From Aurantiochytrium sp. KH105 (Eukaryota > Sar > Bigyra > Thraustochytrida > Thraustochytriidae), in contig BGKB01000074.1 in NCBI GenBank assembly GCA_003116975.1, positions 62,001 to 126,000 of the forward strand: a stretch of DNA of 64,000 nt, in the 5' to 3' direction. Below the pieces are notes generated by a model that saw only the letters and a list, made by a program, of their open reading frames with translations, made no database searches and was not told the DNA's origin. Below, piece by piece: positions 34,686 through 47,777 of the stretch; the stretch's first letter is position 1; each line of letters starts with the position of its first letter. The translations under genes and the position numbers were made by a program.

Positions 34686-37433
34686 TTACAGGTCGGTGGG
34701 ATTCTGAAATTGTTTGCGCACATGACTGGCCTTGGACCCAAGAAACCGAGAGAGGCGGGTTCCCTTTGCAGCTTGCAGTTGGCGGCGCTGCTTGGCCAAG
34801 CGAACCTCCTCTTCAAGCTCGCGGTTCTGCCCGGCTAGAGTTGCGATGTCGTCACCATCGGTGCCTTCCTCGGATCGCCGAGCACGCTCATGCAAAATGT
34901 CTGCGCTCGTTTGCATGACCAGGTTCGCCACCGTCGCATACTCATCGTTGGCATCGTAAGAAACCTCGCGCTCCAAATTGTAAAGTTTGCCCTCCTCTAT
35001 AAACGCCTTGTCACGCCGCCAACGTCGCCGGAAGACAAAAAGGATAACAAGGGACAAGAGAAAGAGAAAACCGGCCACACCGCCGCCAATGGCTGCATTT
35101 TGAATGAGGCCCGAGTCCGTCGAAGCTGGCGCCACGTAATCGATCGGAGATCGCGTCGGCGAGGCCGTCAGCGCATTTGCCCGGACAGCAGTGTCCACGT
35201 GGCTGTAAAATGAGCTCGATTCCAAAGGCTCCAGCGATGTCCAATTGTAGCCGCAATCCGGCCCAAAGCACGCATACAGAGCAAAGGTCTCGACGAGTTC
35301 CGTGCTGAACTCTGCAGTGTATGATCCATCGAGGTTATCAACAATTGTCGCCGCAACACGCTCGTCTGAAAATAAGTTCCAAAGCTCTGTCTCGTTGGCG
35401 ACTTCGAGGGCACGTCGTGAAAGCTCGCCACTTTGTCTCGTGGGGATGAACCAGGCCTTCATGTAATCGGCTTGACCGCCATTGTCCATTTCATTTCCGC
35501 AAAAGTCCCGCGTGTAAATCGTGAAGCCAGCTGTTTCTTCGCCATCCGCGGCAATCTCGACCGTGGAAGCCTCGGGGATGAGATCGCCCGCGTCAGTCTG
35601 ACTCGGCTCCACTGCAACAGTCTCAAGCGAAAACTCAAGAATCTCCAATGTCGACGGCGTGTCTCTTGTGGCTGACGTGAGCCCAATGTAGGCGTCTCGA
35701 CCTCCCAGAATCGTCTCGAGATCAAAATTTTTCTGACGGAGGTAGAGACTGTCGTCCAGGAACACCTGGAGCCAGTCTGGTCGCTGCAAGTACTCAATAC
35801 GCACCGTGTGATTTTCAGCGTCATAGTTTAGACCGCGTTGTATCCCATCATAAACGCGTTCTGTTGCATTCAGGTCGTCGTTCATAAGCTCTGGCATTAT
35901 TGGATAGTGCAATCGAATTTCCTGCTCCGAGCAGACGCTGCTCGATTGACGATCAGCGCACGTGTCAATCGCAACTGCAACCGTGTGTGTCAGAAACCGG
36001 AAACCAAGCCCTGACCCAGTCGACACCGGCATGTCCACGAGACCTTCAGGACGTCGCGTCGCCACAAAGGCAAGACCTTCTAACGCCCCCTCGTCGGGGA
36101 CACGAAAGGTGAAGCTAGCCACAAAGCCAGCTCCCACATTTTGCTGCGCGCTCGTAAACATCCATGTTGAAGCGCTGGATGAGGTAGCGGACGCGCTGGT
36201 GAGGTGCAAAACGTCCGCTTGTAGCCACTCGACCCCTGCGCTGTAGGAAAGCGTGGCGTCCGTGGCATTAGCCAATGAAAATGCAGTCGAGCGCGCATCG
36301 CGTCGGGCTACGTTGCAAGATTCTGAAATGGTTGTGTCGACTTGAAAATTTGATGCGGAAAAATGGCGTTCCGCATGAAAGACGGAAAGTTCGTAGATTT
36401 CCCCAACCGTGAGGTTGAGCTGCGTCGGATCGCTGTAATTGGCAAGAAAAATGCTCCTATTTTCCTGGCCATGCAGGCCCCCGAGATCAATGGCCGGCTT
36501 CCCGTTGATGAAAGCCCAAAAGTCATCATCGCCATAAAAGGTGAACGACTCATCGCCAGAGAACTCGAAATATGTGTGAAGCTCGGTCGTGAACCAATAA
36601 TGTTGGCTATGGAAGTCACGAATCGCATTGGGCCAAATGGGCGCGCGAGCTGGGTCTGGATACACCGACTCAATATCAATACTATTGTAATCCTGAAGTG
36701 GGAAGAACTCCGTCGAGGCATACGAATAGACGCCTTCTGTATTCTTGTCGAGTGTCAGTGGCACGCCAACGCGCTTGTTGTACTTGGCGTCATCGTTGTA
36801 CCAAGCATCAAAGAATTGAGAGCGGGAAGTCATGTATGTGTCTAAATTTTGATCCCACCCATGCCCGCATCGCGCCATTGCCGAGGAGTTACAGTACTGA
36901 AGCTTGGGTAATCCAGAACTCGCGAGTGTCAATGTCGGGCTAATGATGCTCGTGCGCTCCCCGTTACAAGTCTGCGCAACACCTCCATAAAAGCACTCCG
37001 AAGGACCATCCGCAATTGAGTTTTGAGCGCTCTCAAAGTCAGGGTGACCCGAGATTGTTCCATCGCGCATGCCTTCGGTCCAGTACGGACAATAATGTTT
37101 GACGAGGATTGTGTCGCCGCGCCCCACGTAAGGGGGTCCATTAGATGAATCGAAGTCAATGAGCCCTGTCACATTGGCGTAAAAGTTGTCAGGGAGCGTT
37201 TCGTAGTCCTCGTAGACGGAATCGTTGAGACCAACGTAGCTATCGTAGTTCCACCAGAGCTCATACTCGGACTTTCTGATGCAGTGGCTCGGCAAGAAAT
37301 CGCGGATTGTCAGCCGATATACCACGCTGTCTTGCGACTCCACCTCTTGGCCGAGCACATTGGTTATCGCAAGCACGGAGAGAAACCAAAACACAGCCAT
37401 CGTCTTCTTCTTCGTCCTTAACTGCAACATCAT
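34686..37433 (-). CDS. Large type I surface protein, copy 3 of tandem array
   Basis: A 915-residue, more divergent paralogue. It keeps the opening YRLTIRDFLPSHC, the hallmark FTFYGDDDFWAFINGKPAID, the lectin-like domain (GLAFVATRRPEGLVD, YLQRPDWLQVFLDDSLYLRQ), the filamin-like domain (AGFTIYTRDFCGNEMDNGG), a TM (about 776-803, GVAGFLFLLSLVILFVF) and a tail ending RKQFQNPTDL. Differences from copies 1 and 2 are spread along the whole gene, so this copy has escaped the homogenisation that links them. The start is ATG at 37433 (MMLQL on the minus strand), with the signal peptide starting at or just after MAVFWFLSVLAITNVLG (37400). The frame upstream begins only at TTG. Confidence 0.85.
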   Translation of the reverse strand: MMLQLRTKKKTMAVFWFLSVLAITNVLGQEVESQDSVVYRLTIRDFLPSHCIRKSEYELWWNYDSYVGLNDSVYEDYETLPDNFYANVTGLIDFDSSNGPPYVGRGDTILVKHYCPYWTEGMRDGTISGHPDFESAQNSIADGPSECFYGGVAQTCNGERTSIISPTLTLASSGLPKLQYCNSSAMARCGHGWDQNLDTYMTSRSQFFDAWYNDDAKYNKRVGVPLTLDKNTEGVYSYASTEFFPLQDYNSIDIESVYPDPARAPIWPNAIRDFHSQHYWFTTELHTYFEFSGDESFTFYGDDDFWAFINGKPAIDLGGLHGQENRSIFLANYSDPTQLNLTVGEIYELSVFHAERHFSASNFQVDTTISESCNVARRDARSTAFSLANATDATLSYSAGVEWLQADVLHLTSASATSSSASTWMFTSAQQNVGAGFVASFTFRVPDEGALEGLAFVATRRPEGLVDMPVSTGSGLGFRFLTHTVAVAIDTCADRQSSSVCSEQEIRLHYPIMPELMNDDLNATERVYDGIQRGLNYDAENHTVRIEYLQRPDWLQVFLDDSLYLRQKNFDLETILGGRDAYIGLTSATRDTPSTLEILEFSLETVAVEPSQTDAGDLIPEASTVEIAADGEETAGFTIYTRDFCGNEMDNGGQADYMKAWFIPTRQSGELSRRALEVANETELWNLFSDERVAATIVDNLDGSYTAEFSTELVETFALYACFGPDCGYNWTSLEPLESSSFYSHVDTAVRANALTASPTRSPIDYVAPASTDSGLIQNAAIGGGVAGFLFLLSLVILFVFRRRWRRDKAFIEEGKLYNLEREVSYDANDEYATVANLVMQTSADILHERARRSEEGTDGDDIATLAGQNRELEEEVRLAKQRRQLQAAKGTRLSRFLGSKASHVRKQFQNPTDL

Positions 37434-38365
37434 TGTCGTCGTCGTTTGTTTATCTTGCGCGCGCGCGCACAAGGAAGCGCCTTCGCCCTAGCCTTCGACC
37501 TTGCTCTTCAGAGGCCGCAGGCAAGCTGGCCCGCGAGGTGCTTTCTTCTCCACGCTCGGGGTTTGCTCTGTTTTGTCGACAACCATGCCGCATCATTGAC
37601 TTTATCATCTATGGCGAGAACCTGTATGCAAATCTAGAGTGGACATCCGCATAATAACGATAATAATATTCGCGATAACAAAGTATAATACTGTATTCAC
37701 GACTTGTGGTACTCGAAACGTTGGTGCAAGGTTTCAGTCTATTGTGATATGTATATTGATACAAGAAGACCATGCGCTTGGCACGCGCGTGGCAGGTGTG
37801 CACTGACGTCGTGCAGCGCGTGCCAATGGCTGTGGATCGCACAGGCTGCTGCCAACATACGGCCCCGGACGCAGGCAATCAAGTGTTCGCAGTCGCTCGA
37901 CGAGTGATGCGACGCTCGCTCTGACTCTGTCGCACGGCCCAGCAAACCGCTGTGCGCGGAGAAATGAAAAACAACCATGGAGGTCAACTTGACTGGCGAC
38001 TGCCTTTGTTTTGTTCTAGGCAAGAACGCCGCGGAGGCACGGGATTCCCCCCCCCCCCAAAGTGCGGGGATAATGAGCACGAAAGTACTCGCTCGGTACC
38101 CCCAAGGAGGGTAGAGTCGCGCAGCGCTCCCCGGTCCTTCACGTTCTTAGCTTATCGAGTTGCCACTCTCTATCGTAAAGACTAGCCAGAGTACCCCCTG
38201 AATATTTTACGGAGTGAACAGACGAAACAGCAGTAGTTGAGTGAGGACTCACAGAGTACACCCCAACCGGCGGGTGGCCGTGGCATGCGGGCGCGGAGCC
38301 AACACAGCGGCAGAACAGCAGCGCGAGCGAGACGTGCGCGACGAGCGTGAGGGAGCGCAGCAGCA

Positions 38366-40745: not shown

Positions 40746-41299
40746 CAATGTCAGTTTTCGCGTTCACCCGCATGCGCTGCTCCTCTCCCCCCTCCTCTGC
40801 TCTCTTGCTATTCTCGTCCGCAGCCTCCTCGTCCTCGTCTGCCTGCGTCTCTGTCTGTCTGCGCCCTCCTCGTTCGCCATGATATCGGCGCTCCCGCGAC
40901 GCGCGCTCCGCCCCTGCGCGGGGCCGCGGCTCGCGACGTACCAGTACGGGCTCCATGGCGGCCGGCTGGCTGTCCTCGCGCAACGCAGGCCCGCTCCGCC
41001 GCGCTCGAGAGCTCGCCCGGGGCCGCCGCGATCAGAGTTTGCCTGCGCTCCACGATGTTGGCGCCCAAGGTGAAGAAGAAGAAGAAGAAGAAGAAGAAGA
41101 AGAAGAAGAAGAAGAAGAAGAAGGAGAAGGAGAAGGAGAAGGAGAGGAAAAAGGAGAAGAAAAAGGAGGAGAGCGAGGCAGACAAACCCCGCTCGCCCCG
41201 CCCGCACGTGCGCGCGCAGAGCGCTCCCGGGTCGGCGCGGAGACACGCTGGGGCCGCAGCGGCCGTCGCCCGCGTCTGCGCGGCGGCGCGCGGGGCGAC
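40746..41299. other. Divergent intergenic region with AAG repeat
   Basis: About 550 bases between divergent starts of LAMTOR3 and the five-TM gene. It carries a long AAG tract. The plus frame through it is open from 40955 and would encode a poly-Glu leader for the five-TM gene, but it has no ATG that improves the protein. No gene is supported. Confidence 0.5.
41072..41172. repeat. AAG triplet microsatellite
   Basis: A perfect AAG run from 41072 to about 41123, then an interrupted GGAGAA/AGGAGA run to 41172. All three plus frames read through it as poly-Lys, poly-Glu or poly-Arg type filler. Confidence 0.95.
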
Positions 41300-42400
41300 A
41301 TGAGCTTCGAGGCCGGGAACGCGAGCCTGGCGACCCTGAACGCGAGTCTCGCGGACGCCGGCGGCGGGCTCGAGGCCGTCAACACGGTCCACGGCTGGTG
41401 CGATGGGCTCACGGGCTGGGGGCCGACCACACGGGGAGATGCGCTGACCATGTGCTTTTGCAGCTCAGTGATCGAGCTGCCAAGCGCGTTCCTCTTCCTC
41501 ACCTACGCGTTGCCTCGCCTGTACCGAGTCATGCGCGAACCCGAGGTCAAACCGGCGGCTTCGTGGCGATACCAGCTCAAGTTTGTTCTGACGCTCGTCG
41601 CGCTCGCATGTGCGATCGTCCTTGCCATCGACGATGACCCTCCCTCTCCGGCGGTCCGCATTTCCATGTCGCTCACCTCCTTGGGCTGGCTCGTATCTCT
41701 TGCCTTGCTCGTGGCGGGCTACCATCGGCATTTGCCCTCCTTTACCTGCCTGCGACTCTGGTGGGTCGGGCAGTTCACCATCACAATCGTCATCTTCCTC
41801 ATGCATGCCGAACTGCATACAAGCGACATCGTGCACTTTGTGCGCGGGGCCTACGCCTTCATCTGCGTTCTCTTAGGCATCGCTTCCCTTCGACCCAGCG
41901 ACCAGCCCTTGTACCAGAGTGTGGACTTTAGCACGTCATTCTCGCGCGTCAATTCAGATGATAGCTATGATGTTGGGGCTGCAGAGGCCATGGGCGTGCG
42001 GGCTCTCGATCGATCGGTCTCTGAGACCTCGCTTTCTGACGAAACCCCACTTCTCGACTCGTACGCAGAGCAGTACGACAGTATTGAGGCAGGGAGCGTG
42101 CCCGCGACGATTCACGAATCCTCTGCTGCATCCCCGCCAATGGGGCCTTTTTCAAGGCCTCTGGAGCGTCAGATTTCGAATAATTTGCTCATGACCGGTG
42201 CCTCCACGAGTCGGTATAATCGTGTTTTTGCGGCCTTTAATGACGCGCTCTATGGGACCAGAGTGCGCAACGAGGAGCGCAAGAGCCCTGAGCATGGGCA
42301 TGTTCGCGTTCCTCGCGGCAATTCTGAACCTGACAGGACTCGCGATAGTAATAGAGAGTCGGGCTTGTCGAGCAGCCTCGGTGCAAATTCAAAGTGGTAA
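41300..42400 (+). CDS. Five-transmembrane protein resembling a free-standing ABCC TMD0
   Basis: A 366-residue product. Residues 1-45 are lumenal, with NxS/T sites (GNASLATLNASLAD). Then five hydrophobic helices: VIELPSAFLFLTYALPRLYR, LKFVLTLVALACAIVLAIDD, MSLTSLGWLVSLALLVAGY, LWWVGQFTITIVIFLM and FVRGAYAFICVLLGIASLRP. The N-terminal topology, helix spacing and sequence texture (basic LYRVMRE loop, LAIDDD, GYHRHLPSF) resemble TMD0, the five-helix N-terminal domain of ABCC (MRP-type) transporters. Here a Ser-rich soluble tail of about 170 residues and a stop codon follow instead of the ABC core. TMD0 normally directs targeting and partner binding. An alternative is a five-helix segment of another membrane-protein family. 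ATG at 41300 is chosen as the first methionine with a sensible N-terminus. Confidence 0.7.
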   Translation: MSFEAGNASLATLNASLADAGGGLEAVNTVHGWCDGLTGWGPTTRGDALTMCFCSSVIELPSAFLFLTYALPRLYRVMREPEVKPAASWRYQLKFVLTLVALACAIVLAIDDDPPSPAVRISMSLTSLGWLVSLALLVAGYHRHLPSFTCLRLWWVGQFTITIVIFLMHAELHTSDIVHFVRGAYAFICVLLGIASLRPSDQPLYQSVDFSTSFSRVNSDDSYDVGAAEAMGVRALDRSVSETSLSDETPLLDSYAEQYDSIEAGSVPATIHESSAASPPMGPFSRPLERQISNNLLMTGASTSRYNRVFAAFNDALYGTRVRNEERKSPEHGHVRVPRGNSEPDRTRDSNRESGLSSSLGANSKW

Positions 42401-42707: not shown

Positions 42708-45029
42708 TCAAGTTGCAGACGCGCGCGTCTTCCCGAAAATAGCTTCCTTGGACACAAGTTCACTAGGTACCGATGCGCCAGCCATTACGCCAACTTGCGA
42801 GGCGTGACCGCTTGATGTGCGGTGGCCCGAGTAAACTGTCTTGAAAACGGCTGTTCGCAAAATTGCCGCGTGCAATGACGGAAAAGGCTCTGCACCGCAG
42901 CTGCACGTGCCGTCAGCGTTCATTTTGATGATAATGTGTTGGATCTCTTTTTCAGATGTCTGCGCATTTCCCCAGGAGGAATGCGTCGACTGTGCGCTCA
43001 GCCCTCGGTGTAGCCAGCCTTGGTTTGATCTCTTCACAACGACTCCTGCAACGAGTGAGCCCGGATAGCTCTCGCTCAATCGGAGCATAAAGGTCCCTGG
43101 CGGAGCGTTCCGAATGTGATTTTCCACCCCCGTCCGCGAAGTTAGCCACAGCACAGGATAGTGGCGACCGACACGACGCGCCCAAAGGTCACTCAAAAGA
43201 CGTATACTCCGAAGCGTATACACATACCAAGGCCAAAAGGACTTGATGAAGCGCGAGACGGACACAAGACGTCTCGAGGAGGCCGAAACGGCGGCCGGGA
43301 GGACAGGCGATATACGCGTAAGATTCCGAATACCTTCTGCAGATGAATCACTCAACGGGCGTGTTCCTCCAATTGTCTGTGCAAAGTGGCGACGCAGCTG
43401 CTCCGAGAAGCGCGTCCAGGTTGTGCGGCTCTGACTAGCCATGCGCGCACCCTTGCGCTCACAGCACAGTTTCCAAAAGTTCACGCCGGCTGCTGCATCC
43501 TCATCGTCCAGCAGCATGCCGAGCATCTTACGAAAGTCTTCCAGCGTCGACTTTTCACGTTTTGCACAAAGGATGTCGAGGCGGCCGTTCACCAAACTAC
43601 AAGGGCTTTCTCGCGCCGCAGCTTGAATCATTTCTGGGGTGCAGAGTTGCATGGAGTGCAATTTTTCGACAGCGCGTCCGAGAGCCCTCATTTGCTGGGG
43701 TGATGGCGCCTCGATGTCATGCTCGTGCTCGAGCATCGCGAGCGCCGCGGAGGGGTCCATGCCTTCAAGTTCCACGTGTGCAATGTGACTTGAGCTTATT
43801 GCGCCCAAAAAGGGAGAGGCAAATCGTGATACGCACAGCATCGTGATTCCCAAATACTCTGTGAGGCCCTTGACCAGGTCCACAAACGCAGTGTTGCAGA
43901 CCCCCGCCGCCTCGCAATCGTCTAATACGAGAACAATTTCCCGCTGCGGTGTGCAAGTGTCCTCAAAGAGTTCCTTGAGGGCGATCCGGACCTGTTGAAG
44001 AGCCTGTTCAGGCTTGAGTGCGCTTGCAGCGTTGCTTGCCGTCGTGTTACCCGTTTGACCTCCCGCCAAGAGAGGATGGTTCACCTGCAGATCTGCTTTC
44101 TTCGCAATGTCGGCGGCAATTTCCTTGGCAATGTCCAAGGTCCATTGCAGCCGGGCTGCATCATAGTTAGGGGCCCGTTCGTTGATTCTACGGTTAAGTT
44201 TTGCGCAATTGACATAAAATACAGCCCGCATGAGTCTTCGCTCCAAGGCAAACTGAACGACATGCATGGCCAAGGCAGATTTTCCGCTGCCGGGCATGCC
44301 CGTGATAAGAGCAACTCGCTTTTCCTCGTTCAAAAGGGCGTCGCAAACGTCTTGCATGGCTTTGTATCGACCAAAGAAACGCGTTGGCGCCGATACCATT
44401 TGGGGCAACGCAGGCGCGCTCGAAGCTCGTCGAAGCATGTTGTGTGGGTGGAAGAGAGCACTTCTGTCAATGCTCACCTCCGTAGCGTTTGCGTGGCTAG
44501 GGACGACAAGCTTGACTATGTCTGGATCAACCTCTGACGTTGCGAGCGCTTGGTTTAGGACCTCTTGCACAGGTGCTGAGTCGTCTGGCCATGCGAGGAG
44601 CGTCGTGTAAAAGACTTCAACAAAGCCAAGTGCAAGCCCGCGAAGGAGCACAACGGCAGGAACGCCCACATCCAAAAATCCCTCTGCTGCGTCATCGGCG
44701 TGCTCGAGCCCTTGTGCGCTCACAAAGACGACGGGGCGTGGTCGCTGGGCAAGCCGTACTGTGCGAAGGGCCTCGGGTCCGAGGTCGCATAGTTTGCCCT
44801 TGTTTGTCTCGAGCATAAGCCTACCGCCAGCAATTCCAGAGCCTACAAAGTGCAGGACGCTTCCCATCGGGTTCGCGTTTAGTGCGCCCAGCAGCGCTTG
44901 GCTTGTCGCTGCGTGAAGAGTATACGCGACGCCGCTCGCTTCGCAGACGCGCCGCACCACATGGGCCTCTTCACGATATTGTCCAGGCCGCAGCCTCGAG
45001 TCGCGCGGCGCGCTGAAGAGCACCTGCAT
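42708..45029 (-). CDS. CHAT-like pseudo-protease + STAND NTPase + STAT-like linker/SH2 fusion
   Basis: A 773-residue single-exon protein with three parts. (1) Residues 1-170 have a CHAT (caspase-like) fold: VLHFVGSGIAGGRLMLE, then VVFVSAQGLEHADDAAEGFL, DVGVPAVVLLRGLAL and VEVFYTTLLAWPDDSAPVQE. The catalytic His and Cys positions read Ser64 and Ala105, so it is probably inactive. (2) Residues 217-435 form a STAND/NB-ARC-type P-loop NTPase: FFGRYKAMQDV, Walker A GMPGSGKSALA (244-254), Walker B IVLVLDD (365-371) and a sensor Arg in TMLCVSRF (Arg402). (3) Residues 590-735 resemble the STAT linker plus SH2: FIKSFWPWYVYTLRSIRLLS, then PPGTFMLRLSESYPGSLVAG with phosphotyrosine-binding Arg650, then IQHIIIKMNADG. 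This suggests a nucleotide-switched scaffold that reads phosphotyrosine. ATG at 45029 is fixed by an upstream in-frame stop. No DNA-binding domain is visible. Confidence 0.8.
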   Translation of the reverse strand: MQVLFSAPRDSRLRPGQYREEAHVVRRVCEASGVAYTLHAATSQALLGALNANPMGSVLHFVGSGIAGGRLMLETNKGKLCDLGPEALRTVRLAQRPRPVVFVSAQGLEHADDAAEGFLDVGVPAVVLLRGLALGFVEVFYTTLLAWPDDSAPVQEVLNQALATSEVDPDIVKLVVPSHANATEVSIDRSALFHPHNMLRRASSAPALPQMVSAPTRFFGRYKAMQDVCDALLNEEKRVALITGMPGSGKSALAMHVVQFALERRLMRAVFYVNCAKLNRRINERAPNYDAARLQWTLDIAKEIAADIAKKADLQVNHPLLAGGQTGNTTASNAASALKPEQALQQVRIALKELFEDTCTPQREIVLVLDDCEAAGVCNTAFVDLVKGLTEYLGITMLCVSRFASPFLGAISSSHIAHVELEGMDPSAALAMLEHEHDIEAPSPQQMRALGRAVEKLHSMQLCTPEMIQAAARESPCSLVNGRLDILCAKREKSTLEDFRKMLGMLLDDEDAAAGVNFWKLCCERKGARMASQSRTTWTRFSEQLRRHFAQTIGGTRPLSDSSAEGIRNLTRISPVLPAAVSASSRRLVSVSRFIKSFWPWYVYTLRSIRLLSDLWARRVGRHYPVLWLTSRTGVENHIRNAPPGTFMLRLSESYPGSLVAGVVVKRSNQGWLHRGLSAQSTHSSWGNAQTSEKEIQHIIIKMNADGTCSCGAEPFPSLHAAILRTAVFKTVYSGHRTSSGHASQVGVMAGASVPSELVSKEAIFGKTRASAT

Positions 45030-45480: not shown

Positions 45481-45485
45481 TTACA
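45208..45485. repeat. Imperfect direct duplication of about 90-100 bases
   Basis: The stretches about 45217-45293 (CGGAGCACAGGCTGCTTGCC ... AAGAAGAACTCACGCATCTA) and about 45400-45473 (CGGAGCGCACTCTGCCCCAG ... AAGAAGATTTCACGCGTCTA) share the same order of phrases with many differences, and both end in ATCA-AAAG. The copy next to the OTU gene's stop probably gave rise to the other, or the reverse. Alignment by eye only. Confidence 0.5.
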
Positions 45486-45814
45486 ATTCTGTCCTGCTCG
45501 TGCCGCCGTGATTGGTTTCCGGGGGCTGCACATTGTTCTTCAAACTACTACTACTGCCATCGGCACTCCCACCACTGCTATTGGTCCCGCTTAGCTCGGC
45601 CACATCTGAGGGGCTCGGCGGTATACTTGCGCTGGGGACTTGCATAATGAGCGAAGAAGCCTCGCTCATGCTGTTTGCACGAGAAAGTAGAGCCAACGCT
45701 TTGTCAGAGAAACGCTTGCGACGCTCATCATCCCGAATCGTCATTACATTGTAGTGAACTGGAGAGAGATACGTGAGAAAAACATGTCTCTGGATGTTGT
45801 TGTTGGCAACATTA

Positions 45815-45854
<40 letters not shown>

Positions 45855-47223
45855 ATTCGCCGCCATCACTACTCTCAACCTCCTCAAGCTTATCATGGGA
45901 ACTCTTTTCCTTTTGTGTTGCGACTTGCGGAGCATACTCAAGATAGTAGCCCCCGAAGCCCTCCGTGGACGTGAGCACATGCACAGTGACACATAGTGCG
46001 TCAGCCACGGCCTTGAGTGTCAACTCATCGCCCCATTCGCCATTTTTGGACATTTTCTCGAGGTATGCTTCGAACTCCTCAGGACTGCCAAAGAAGACGT
46101 TGCTCTCGTCGGGGTGAGCTTGCATGTGCGCAACAGCCTTGGCCCGAACCCAGGCATGATGCTCCTGGGTTCCAAAGAGTTCGTGACTTATGGCTCGAAA
46201 TTGGCAGTTTCCGTCTCCACTCACAACAATTTCGCCCATCCCAAAATTGCTCAGACGCTCCTTGAGCAGGTTCATTTGCGAGGTTCCGCGGCGGACTTGA
46301 ATCGAGTCGGGAGAGCCCGGGGCATCCCGTTTGCGGACCGTCTCCTTGGCATCATCCGCTTTGCGTTTCATGGCCACCATGGCGCGAACAAGCGCAGGAT
46401 TCCACTTGACGCTCGATCGGCCCTTGAGAGCGCGCAGCATCGCCTTATCGTGGGCCCGGCGTTTACGGATCACCGGCACTGCCACGGGTATGCCCGTGAC
46501 CACAAGAGCAGGTGGTTCTTCAGGCTCGATATTCGAACCAAAGCGCGAGTGAGGCGTCGAAGAGTGCAGCGTGGAAGGCGACGACATTGTTTTGGGTGTT
46601 GAAGGATCGATAATATCGTCTGCCTTGAGAGCAGCCGTCCCCTTCGACTCGTCCTTTGCATCTGCGCTCGCCCAAGTTCTATCTCGAAAGGCATCAGAAG
46701 GCGCATGCGATAGCACATGGCGATGATGTTCTTTGAGCAAGAGCTTGATTGCCTCTAGTTCATTGTAGCGGGTCTCCCGAAGTGCTCGCAGCGTATGTAC
46801 GTCCGAGAAGCCGAGCTTTCGTAGCGAGTCGATCTCCTTGGCATGGATCGAGCGACGGAACTTGTCAGAGATCCTGCTCGATCGGGCCTGACCTGCAAGA
46901 TGCGAATCTGGGTCTTCATCGTTGACGCGCTTTGCGATGGTGCGCAAGATCCGGAGGTGATCTCCCTCGAGTTCCTCGACAAGATCCACGGCAATCTCGT
47001 CGGGGACACCAATCTCCTCAACGAGCTCACGGAGAAGCGCCGAGCTTTCGCGCAAAAGTGCGATGCTCTTGCGCTCCCCCTTGTTCGCGCCCACGCCCTT
47101 TCCCCCTGCCGCTGCCGCTGCAGCCCCGCTCGCGGCGTCCTTTTTCTTCGCATCGCCGTCGCCGCCGCCGCCGGCTCGGTTCTGCGCCGTCGCCGTCGTC
47201 GTCGAGGAGGCGTTGTTGCCCAT
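45481..47223 (-). CDS. OTU-family deubiquitinase with UBA-like domain and myristoylation motif
   Basis: A 580-residue product. The start MGNNASS fits the N-myristoylation consensus (Gly2, Ser6), which would tether it to membranes. A Gly/Ala-rich linker follows. Next is a helical region with a UBA-like unit (about 128-165: EIDSLRKLGFSDVHTLRALR and YNELEAIKLLLKEH), a basic disordered middle and an OTU cysteine-protease domain (about 320-495). The catalytic set is visible: Asp337 and Cys340 in VSGDGNCQFRA and His490 in YLSPVHYN. OTU enzymes remove or trim ubiquitin chains. Between the core and the last strand is a pure Asp run of about 13 residues from a GTC/GAC microsatellite. ATG at 47223 is chosen for the MG motif. 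The gene diverges from EFL1 across a 554-base shared promoter region. Confidence 0.88.
45816..45853. repeat. GTC triplet tract encoding poly-Asp in the OTU protein
   Basis: About twelve perfect CGT/GTC units, read as GAC (Asp) on the minus strand. It sits in a surface loop of the OTU domain, so its length can probably vary without destroying the fold. Confidence 0.9.
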
Positions 47224-47777
47224 CTTCGCCCCGAGTCTGGCCGCGAGTCCTGCGCAGGCGCTGCGGACAGGTCGGGCGGCGAGGAGGAGCGCGCCGTCCA
47301 GGGCCGGCAGGCGTCGCGCGAAGGGCGTCTGCGCCGAGCCGAGCCGAGCCGAGCCGAGCGCGCCGCACAAAGCCTCACGCCGCCAGTATCCTTCCTTTCC
47401 GGGTCTGCTGCAGTGCAGTGCCGCCTTTTGGGCCACGTTCCTTTTCAAAAACCAGTTGTTCAAATCCCCGTTCAAAACCAAGTTCAAATCCTCGTTCGAA
47501 ACGCAGCAACAAAGCCTCTCTGTCAATAGACGCAACCAACAACTCGAGGAGGAAACCTTGGAGGACTCGGAGCAGAACGCCTCCTCGCCTCGCCTCGCCT
47601 CGCCTCGCCTCGCCGCCCTGACGCGCGCGAACGCGAACGCGAGGCCGCTGGACGCGCGCGAGGGCGCCCGGCCCGCGCTGCGGCCGCCTTGCTCGCGCGC
47701 GAGGCAGGGGGTTTGGAGATCGCGGCGCTTGCTTGCTTGCTTGCTCGCGGGCATCGAGCGGCCACGAGGAAGCCGCC
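47224..47777. other. Shared divergent promoter region (OTU / EFL1)
   Basis: About 550 bases between divergent start codons. It contains GAGCC runs (47335-47360), CGCCT repeats (47580-47613) and TTGC runs (47727-47745). An imperfect TTCAAA/TTCGAA-type phrase repeats near 47445-47500. No gene is supported. Confidence 0.5.

Follow-up and report, generated by a model that had tools for sequence, protein, structure and literature searches.

Bacteria and fungi are known to have CHAT-STAND proteins, in which sensing is usually left to repeats. Fungal NLRs with an N-terminal CHAT domain, and the cutting of gasdermins by CHAT, are described in a passage of PMC10197012; the protein analysed here (P0001) resembles these NLRs in joining an N-terminal caspase-like CHAT domain and a STAND-type NTPase in one chain. 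According to the same passage, the fungal CHAT NLRs carry repeats (ANK, TPR, WD40) or cluster with gasdermin (PMC10197012), whereas P0001 ends in a linker-SH2 region, has lost its catalytic pair and comes from a genome in which no gasdermin was matched at E<=10. A paralogue in the same genome, P0002, shares the CHAT fold family and the His/Cys pair with SAVED-CHAT (8tl0) and with TPR-CHAT/Csx29 of type III CRISPR, the latter mapped to P0002 by motif and spacing and not matched by sequence. P0001 is unlike both, with its dyad lost and an SH2 domain present. SAVED-CHAT of 8tl0 is activated by cyclic nucleotides, not by an SH2 domain; TPR-CHAT is activated by target RNA in the account excerpted from PMC9729208.

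STAT-like linker-SH2 regions are carried by plant and other proteins as well as by STATs. Like STATs, of which Dictyostelium STATa (1uur) was nearest, P0001 has a linker with an aromatic helix followed by SH2. Unlike STATs, neither P0001 nor P0002 had a detectable coiled-coil or DNA-binding domain, their N-terminal half is CHAT-NTPase, and they share no conserved tail tyrosine. The nearest precedent is the sponge Death-TRADD-N proteins, whose variable C-terminal domains include SH2 in the relevant passage of PMC8195603: an apoptosis/immunity-type core is likewise joined to a C-terminal module that varies and may be an SH2. However, these are animal proteins, with a Death-like/TRADD-N core and no CHAT-STAND, and their kinship to STATs is unstated in that passage (PMC8195603). 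No NACHT-SH2 fusion is named in the portion of the amphioxus NACHT paper cited here (PMC2575513). Among the matches listed from the open-access literature, no protist protein joining CHAT or STAND to SH2 was described, and no open-access paper was found that pairs an SH2 domain with a thraustochytrid. CHAT-STAND fusions are known, and a STAT-type linker-SH2 on what appears to be one was not found reported among those matches, in agreement with the earlier note on this DNA, to which the architecture was unfamiliar.

Reading frame, second copy and paralogue

In the window (the whole stretch of 64,000 nucleotides that was analysed), P0001 is a single uninterrupted open reading frame (Table 1). 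Its position was exactly that given by the earlier note, from which the strand was absent. From base composition only, the chance of 773 open codons is P ~1e-13. When the genome (76 Mb, 367 contigs) was searched, a second copy with 97% amino acid identity was found on contig C178, from 48909 onward. Of the 2,319 coding bases, 64 differed between the copies, and 45 of these differences lay at third codon positions; there were no indels in the coding sequence and no stop in the C178 copy. The two 2-kb flanks contained 8 and 12 indel events, a rate at which ~11.6 coding indels would be expected vs 0 observed (P ~1e-5). Divergence between the copies was dN 0.0118 and dS 0.0803 (dN/dS ~0.15). Maintenance of the whole frame by selection is shown here at the level of sequence.

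Table 1. Features of P0001, with positions in the window
Feature	Position	Strand	Basis
Whole P0001 coding sequence, 773 aa + stop	42708..45029	-	Single open frame, ATG to stop; second copy intact
CHAT-like (caspase-like) domain, residues ~1-180, predicted pseudoprotease	44490..45029	-	BLASTP to P0002; relatives' profile; alignments
Ser64, where the CHAT catalytic His is expected (His141 in P0002)	44838..44840	-	Alignments
Gln106, where the CHAT catalytic Cys is expected (Cys183 in P0002)	44712..44714	-	Alignments
STAND-type P-loop NTPase, residues ~217-440	43710..44381	-	AAA_16 4.5e-12; NB-ARC across family
Walker A, residues 244-252, GMPGSGKSA	44274..44300	-	Sequence
Walker B, residues 365-371, IVLVLDD	43917..43937	-	Sequence
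STAT-type linker, residues ~532-625, aromatic helix from residue 597	43155..43436	-	STATa match 532-659; profiles
STAT-type SH2, residues ~626-728	42846..43154	-	Pfam SH2 631-720; STATs best in profiles
Arg650 in GTFMLRLSES (Arg855 in P0002)	43080..43082	-	STATa alignment

P0002 is a 969-aa open reading frame on C20 (L034:1576-4485) with a second copy on C121. It is 28% identical to P0001, and the order CHAT, P-loop NTPase, linker, SH2 is common to both. Its copies gave dN 0.0153 and dS 0.0694 (dN/dS ~0.22), and the 4 codon columns with gaps all preserved the frame. The paired near-identical (~97%) copies of P0001 and of P0002 are probably haplotypes, because SH2, CHAT and many other genes here form near-identical pairs.

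Two adjoining genes, or a misassembly, might have been taken for one. However, P0001 was open in two independent contigs without the coding indels expected from the flanks, and P0002, itself in two copies, has the same domain order. Because two diverged genes share this order, chance fusion or gene-model error is unlikely; two genes read as one were rejected on the intact second copy, the missing indels and the order in P0002, and we regard an artefact of either kind as barely credible. The three-part architecture of CHAT-like domain, STAND NTPase and STAT-type linker-SH2, claimed for one protein by the earlier note, is in our judgement very probably real. The gene next upstream, at 45481-47754 on the minus strand, encodes an OTU cysteine protease (1.2e-16; a UBA match was weak). 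The convergent neighbour at 40955-42400 on the plus strand matched an ABC transporter TMD0 domain (3.9e-9), with no ABC transporter in frame, and a 928-aa frame at 34686-37472 on the minus strand matched PA14 (2.8e-8) and, weakly, L-type lectin.

CHAT domain and P-loop NTPase

No CHAT match to P0001 was obtained in the direct Pfam scan at E<=10. A profile built from the three other CHAT-STAND proteins of the genome matched it with 21.3 bits (E 2e-4 in 20,598 sequences); the best of 20,000 shuffles reached 12.8 bits against the same profile. BLASTP between P0001 and P0002 gave 2e-9 over residues 21-273 (a two-sequence E-value). These results place P0001 in the CHAT family, through its relatives only. 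P0002 matched CHAT (PF12770) directly at 5.8e-14, over the Pfam cut-off, and contains the catalytic motifs LHFTCHG (His141) and VSAC (Cys183). The P0002 His and Cys aligned with their equivalents in the SAVED-type CHAT structure 8tl0; a profile built from the CHAT-NTPase cores of all four family members hit this structure at 4.3e-13.

All six rows that represent the P0002, L047 and L049 gene pairs kept the His/Cys dyad; it was replaced in both P0001 rows, each copy having Ser64 and Gln106. The P0001 row of this alignment lacks the first residues, and a separate clean alignment also gave Ser64/Gln106. The replaced residues are 42 apart in P0001, as are His and Cys in P0002; a spacing of 42 is likewise given for H585-C627 of TPR-CHAT in an excerpt of PMC9729208, where the Cys is required for cleavage. 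Residues 1-180 of P0001 had the strongest constraint within the protein (dN 0.0025, dS 0.066). The CHAT domain of P0001 is predicted to be catalytically dead, and we conclude that it is a putative pseudoprotease retained for function, because the dyad is gone while this region stays the most constrained. A predicted pseudoprotease (P0001) and a predicted protease (P0002) would thus be encoded in the same genome. For the caspase-fold N-terminus proposed earlier, the homology was borne out through relatives, and the catalytic His and Cys proved to be replaced.

P0001 might instead be a stand-alone phosphotyrosine adaptor or scaffold, independent of P0002, in which a relic CHAT domain serves folding or contacts, the NTPase sets the oligomer state and the output is recruitment, not proteolysis. 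The loss of both catalytic residues under continued constraint on the CHAT part is consistent with this, and an identity of just 28% to P0002 implies an old split. However, the linker-SH2 and NTPase common to the two proteins suggest related ligands, and we hold the adaptor reading to be possible but doubtful. The reading we prefer is that P0001 is NLR-like and works with P0002.

The P-loop motifs were located as GMPGSGKS at residue 244 and IVLVLDD at residue 365, in line with those noted earlier. AAA_16 (4.5e-12, residues 217-375) and ATPase_2 (3.9e-8) were both over their Pfam cut-offs in P0001. STAND families scored below theirs in P0001 (NACHT 25.0 vs 26.7, nSTAND1 22.2 vs 27.1, NB-ARC 15.1 vs 23.5), as did nSTAND3 and NPHP3_N. 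Across the family, NB-ARC was matched at E<=1 in 4/4 members, the best value being 4.2e-5 and still below cut-off; none of these proteins had a STAND family over its Pfam cut-off. A GxP-type motif of the ARC region was present as RGHP in P0002, EGNP in L047 and AGNP in L049; when P0001 was aligned with these three, Gly482 aligned and the Pro was absent. The Pfam scan gave no repeat family as a C-terminal sensor in P0001, the linker-SH2 standing there instead. P0001 is assigned as STAND-type by its P-loop, the sub-threshold matches and the family context. NCBIfam returned weak P-loop matches only, and the best PADLOC match, mad8 (1.1e-5 over the NTPase), was taken as P-loop kinship only.

Linker and SH2 region

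SH2 (PF00017) was matched in P0001 at residues 631-720 with 24.0 bits against a cut-off of 21 (4.3e-5) and in P0002 with 25.1 bits (1.9e-5), also over cut-off; in P0002, CHAT and SH2 passed their Pfam cut-offs and the NTPase matches fell below. When P0001 alone was searched with phmmer, Dictyostelium STATa was matched at E 5e-4 over residues 532-659, running from the linker into SH2, and STAT6 came next at 0.07. A profile of P0001, its second copy and P0002 matched STATa in the PDB at 2.3e-8; its 21 best distinct PDB sequences were all STATs, and the first non-STAT SH2 was Drk/Grb2. With the linker-SH2 alignment alone, STATa was matched at 3.8e-9 and 21 STATs again came first. For P0002 alone, the 20 best sequences were STATs (STATa 1.9e-7, STAT5B 2.4e-6), and 8tl0 came next. 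The linker-SH2 of P0001 is assigned to the STAT type on these matches, and the STAT identity put forward earlier was strengthened by P0002. The signature was found as GTFMLRLSES at residue 645 and the linker helix as SFWPWYVY at 597. Arg650 is the invariant SH2 arginine, whose established role is phosphotyrosine binding.

The PDB profile alignments run from the final helix of the linker through the first half of SH2, to about residue 671; the distal half is covered in P0001 by the Pfam match alone and carries an insertion relative to P0002. The SH2 domain may no longer read phosphotyrosine and may, like degenerate SH2 domains, serve only structure or protein contacts. Its divergence, the insertion, a Pfam score 3 bits over cut-off and the end of the profile matches near residue 671 all fit such a module. 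However, Arg650 and the SES motif that follows are kept in both P0001 and P0002, and we consider the loss of reading unlikely. Single-sequence AlphaFold models of residues 521-745 (pLDDT 36.6) and 585-735 (pLDDT 38.9) were too poor to count as fold evidence. Foldseek on these two poor models listed SH2-containing entries in 50/50 and 44/50 rows, none at E<=0.001 and not independent evidence, as Foldseek also scores sequence. The other 6 rows listed for 585-735 were a collagen XVIII trimerisation domain or spike complexes, and no STAT by name was among the 50 rows listed per model.

STAT_bind, the DNA-binding domain, was not matched in the Pfam scans of P0001 and P0002, and in the genome none was over cut-off, two rows elsewhere having E 0.52 and 1.2. 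Past the SH2 domain, P0001 has Y733 only and P0002 has no tyrosine after residue 868, which is inside its SH2; a conserved tyrosine C-terminal to SH2 is absent between the two. These observations bear on a STAT-style reciprocal dimer, in which SH2 would bind the C-terminal phosphotyrosine of a partner chain and switch the NTPase, possibly in the nucleus. The STAT type of the linker-SH2 and the place of Y733 just past it speak for such a dimer. However, self-dimerisation of this kind is not supported because the SH2 of P0002 is followed by no tyrosine, and the absence of STAT_bind also counts against it; we judge it improbable. The interpretation in the earlier note held for the three-part order and the STAT identity; the caspase-fold domain of P0001 is predicted to be inactive, and the NLR-like switch gated by tyrosine phosphorylation suggested there is still an inference. 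We continue to prefer docking of the SH2 domain on phosphotyrosine sites, as set out below.

CHAT-STAND family, signalling context and proposed mechanism

When the genome was searched with P0002 and PF12770, two further CHAT-STAND gene pairs were found (C194/C2 and C110/C33), both ending soon after the NTPase. In the first (L047:1-3465, plus strand of C194, copy on C2), an EGF-like module (24.3 bits, cut-off 24.3) and a probable membrane-spanning segment precede CHAT, suggesting a receptor-like CHAT-STAND protein with its dyad intact. In the second (L049:1-3192, plus strand of C110, copy on C33), LRR matches (LRR_1 20.9 bits vs 20.6) precede an intact-dyad CHAT and the NTPase; 1,064 aa of its 3,380-aa open frame were read. 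PF12770 gave 10 rows in the genome, 8 over cut-off; the family described here is that of P0001, P0002, L047 and L049, and does not take in C200/C97, whose CHAT match passed the cut-off, or C256/C15, whose match fell short of it. The varied partners of P0001, P0002, L047 and L049 indicate that the CHAT-STAND core is combined with different modules, with linker-SH2 in two of the four gene pairs. Among viral contigs, none had P0001; of 81 pattern matches for A1, none was confirmed.

At E<=0.01 the genome had 10 SH2 rows, corresponding to 5 stretches in 4 gene pairs: P0001, P0002, an SPT6-like gene (by sequence reading) and a tandem-SH2 gene. The last (L032:2507-4615, minus strand of C43, copy on C193) encodes 702 aa, in which a second SH2 comes after a Cbl-TKB-like EF-hand/SH2 region (Cbl_N3 4.8e-6; PDB CBL 5.7e-4 over 212-348); its Pfam list contained no RING. 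Protein tyrosine phosphatase genes were present, with two strong pairs. The DNA pattern for a classical tyrosine kinase, HRD(L/F)(A/R)A(A/R)N, had one match in the genome, HRDFRARN, on a single contig. For PF07714, a family that extends to TKL kinases, there were many matches of TKL type (144 rows). A phosphotyrosine writer in this genome is conceivable by analogy, because TKL kinases activate Dictyostelium STATs, according to a reference title in PMC5758549.

On the mitochondrial contig C366 (L057), TTA accounted for 0/65 Leu codons over 531 codons of the cox1 frame, where TTA first appears at the C-terminus. In another frame, nad4-like by sequence reading, TTA was 0/66 over 457 codons. Such avoidance agrees with the Thraustochytrium mitochondrial code (NCBI table 23), making the earlier assignment to a protist (labyrinthulomycete) plausible.

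We propose that P0001 may be an intracellular NLR-like CHAT-STAND protein with a linker-SH2 where others carry repeats. Under stress or invasion a kinase, probably of the TKL type that activates STATs in Dictyostelium, would create a phosphotyrosine site, and the SH2 domain would anchor P0001 there. Clustered docking sites would bring NTPase domains together, and ATP-dependent oligomerisation would then gather the CHAT domains. The complex would owe its protease activity to P0002, which has the same design and keeps the His/Cys pair, and P0001 would dock and oligomerise without cutting, as a modulator (brake or scaffold) comparable to cFLIP for caspase-8. The common domain order, the STAT matches, the dyad of P0002, the constraint on both genes and the phosphatase and TKL-type kinase matches speak for this mechanism; the single odd tyrosine-kinase pattern, the failure to match gasdermin, the sub-threshold STAND scores and the missing Pro of the GxP-type motif in P0001 speak against it. 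That the two act together is a guess from their shared design. For P0001 as such a protein, with the full mechanism including P0002, we put the chance a little short of even. A wider reading is that tyrosine phosphorylation acts directly on a caspase-like protease in a unicellular protist. P0002 would then combine an SH2 sensor, a STAND switch and a CHAT executor in a one-chain receptor-protease, with P0001 as its evolved pseudoprotease regulator; we offer this tentatively and place it on the unlikely side.

A STAT-type linker-SH2 in the place of the sensor would make the trigger testable, as the ligand would be a phosphotyrosine peptide. Taken together, P0001 and the intact-site P0002 hint that tyrosine phosphorylation may feed directly into a protease of the cell-death type. 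If the wider reading is true, the STAT linker-SH2 would be an old portable module that also serves NLR-like defence, outside transcription.
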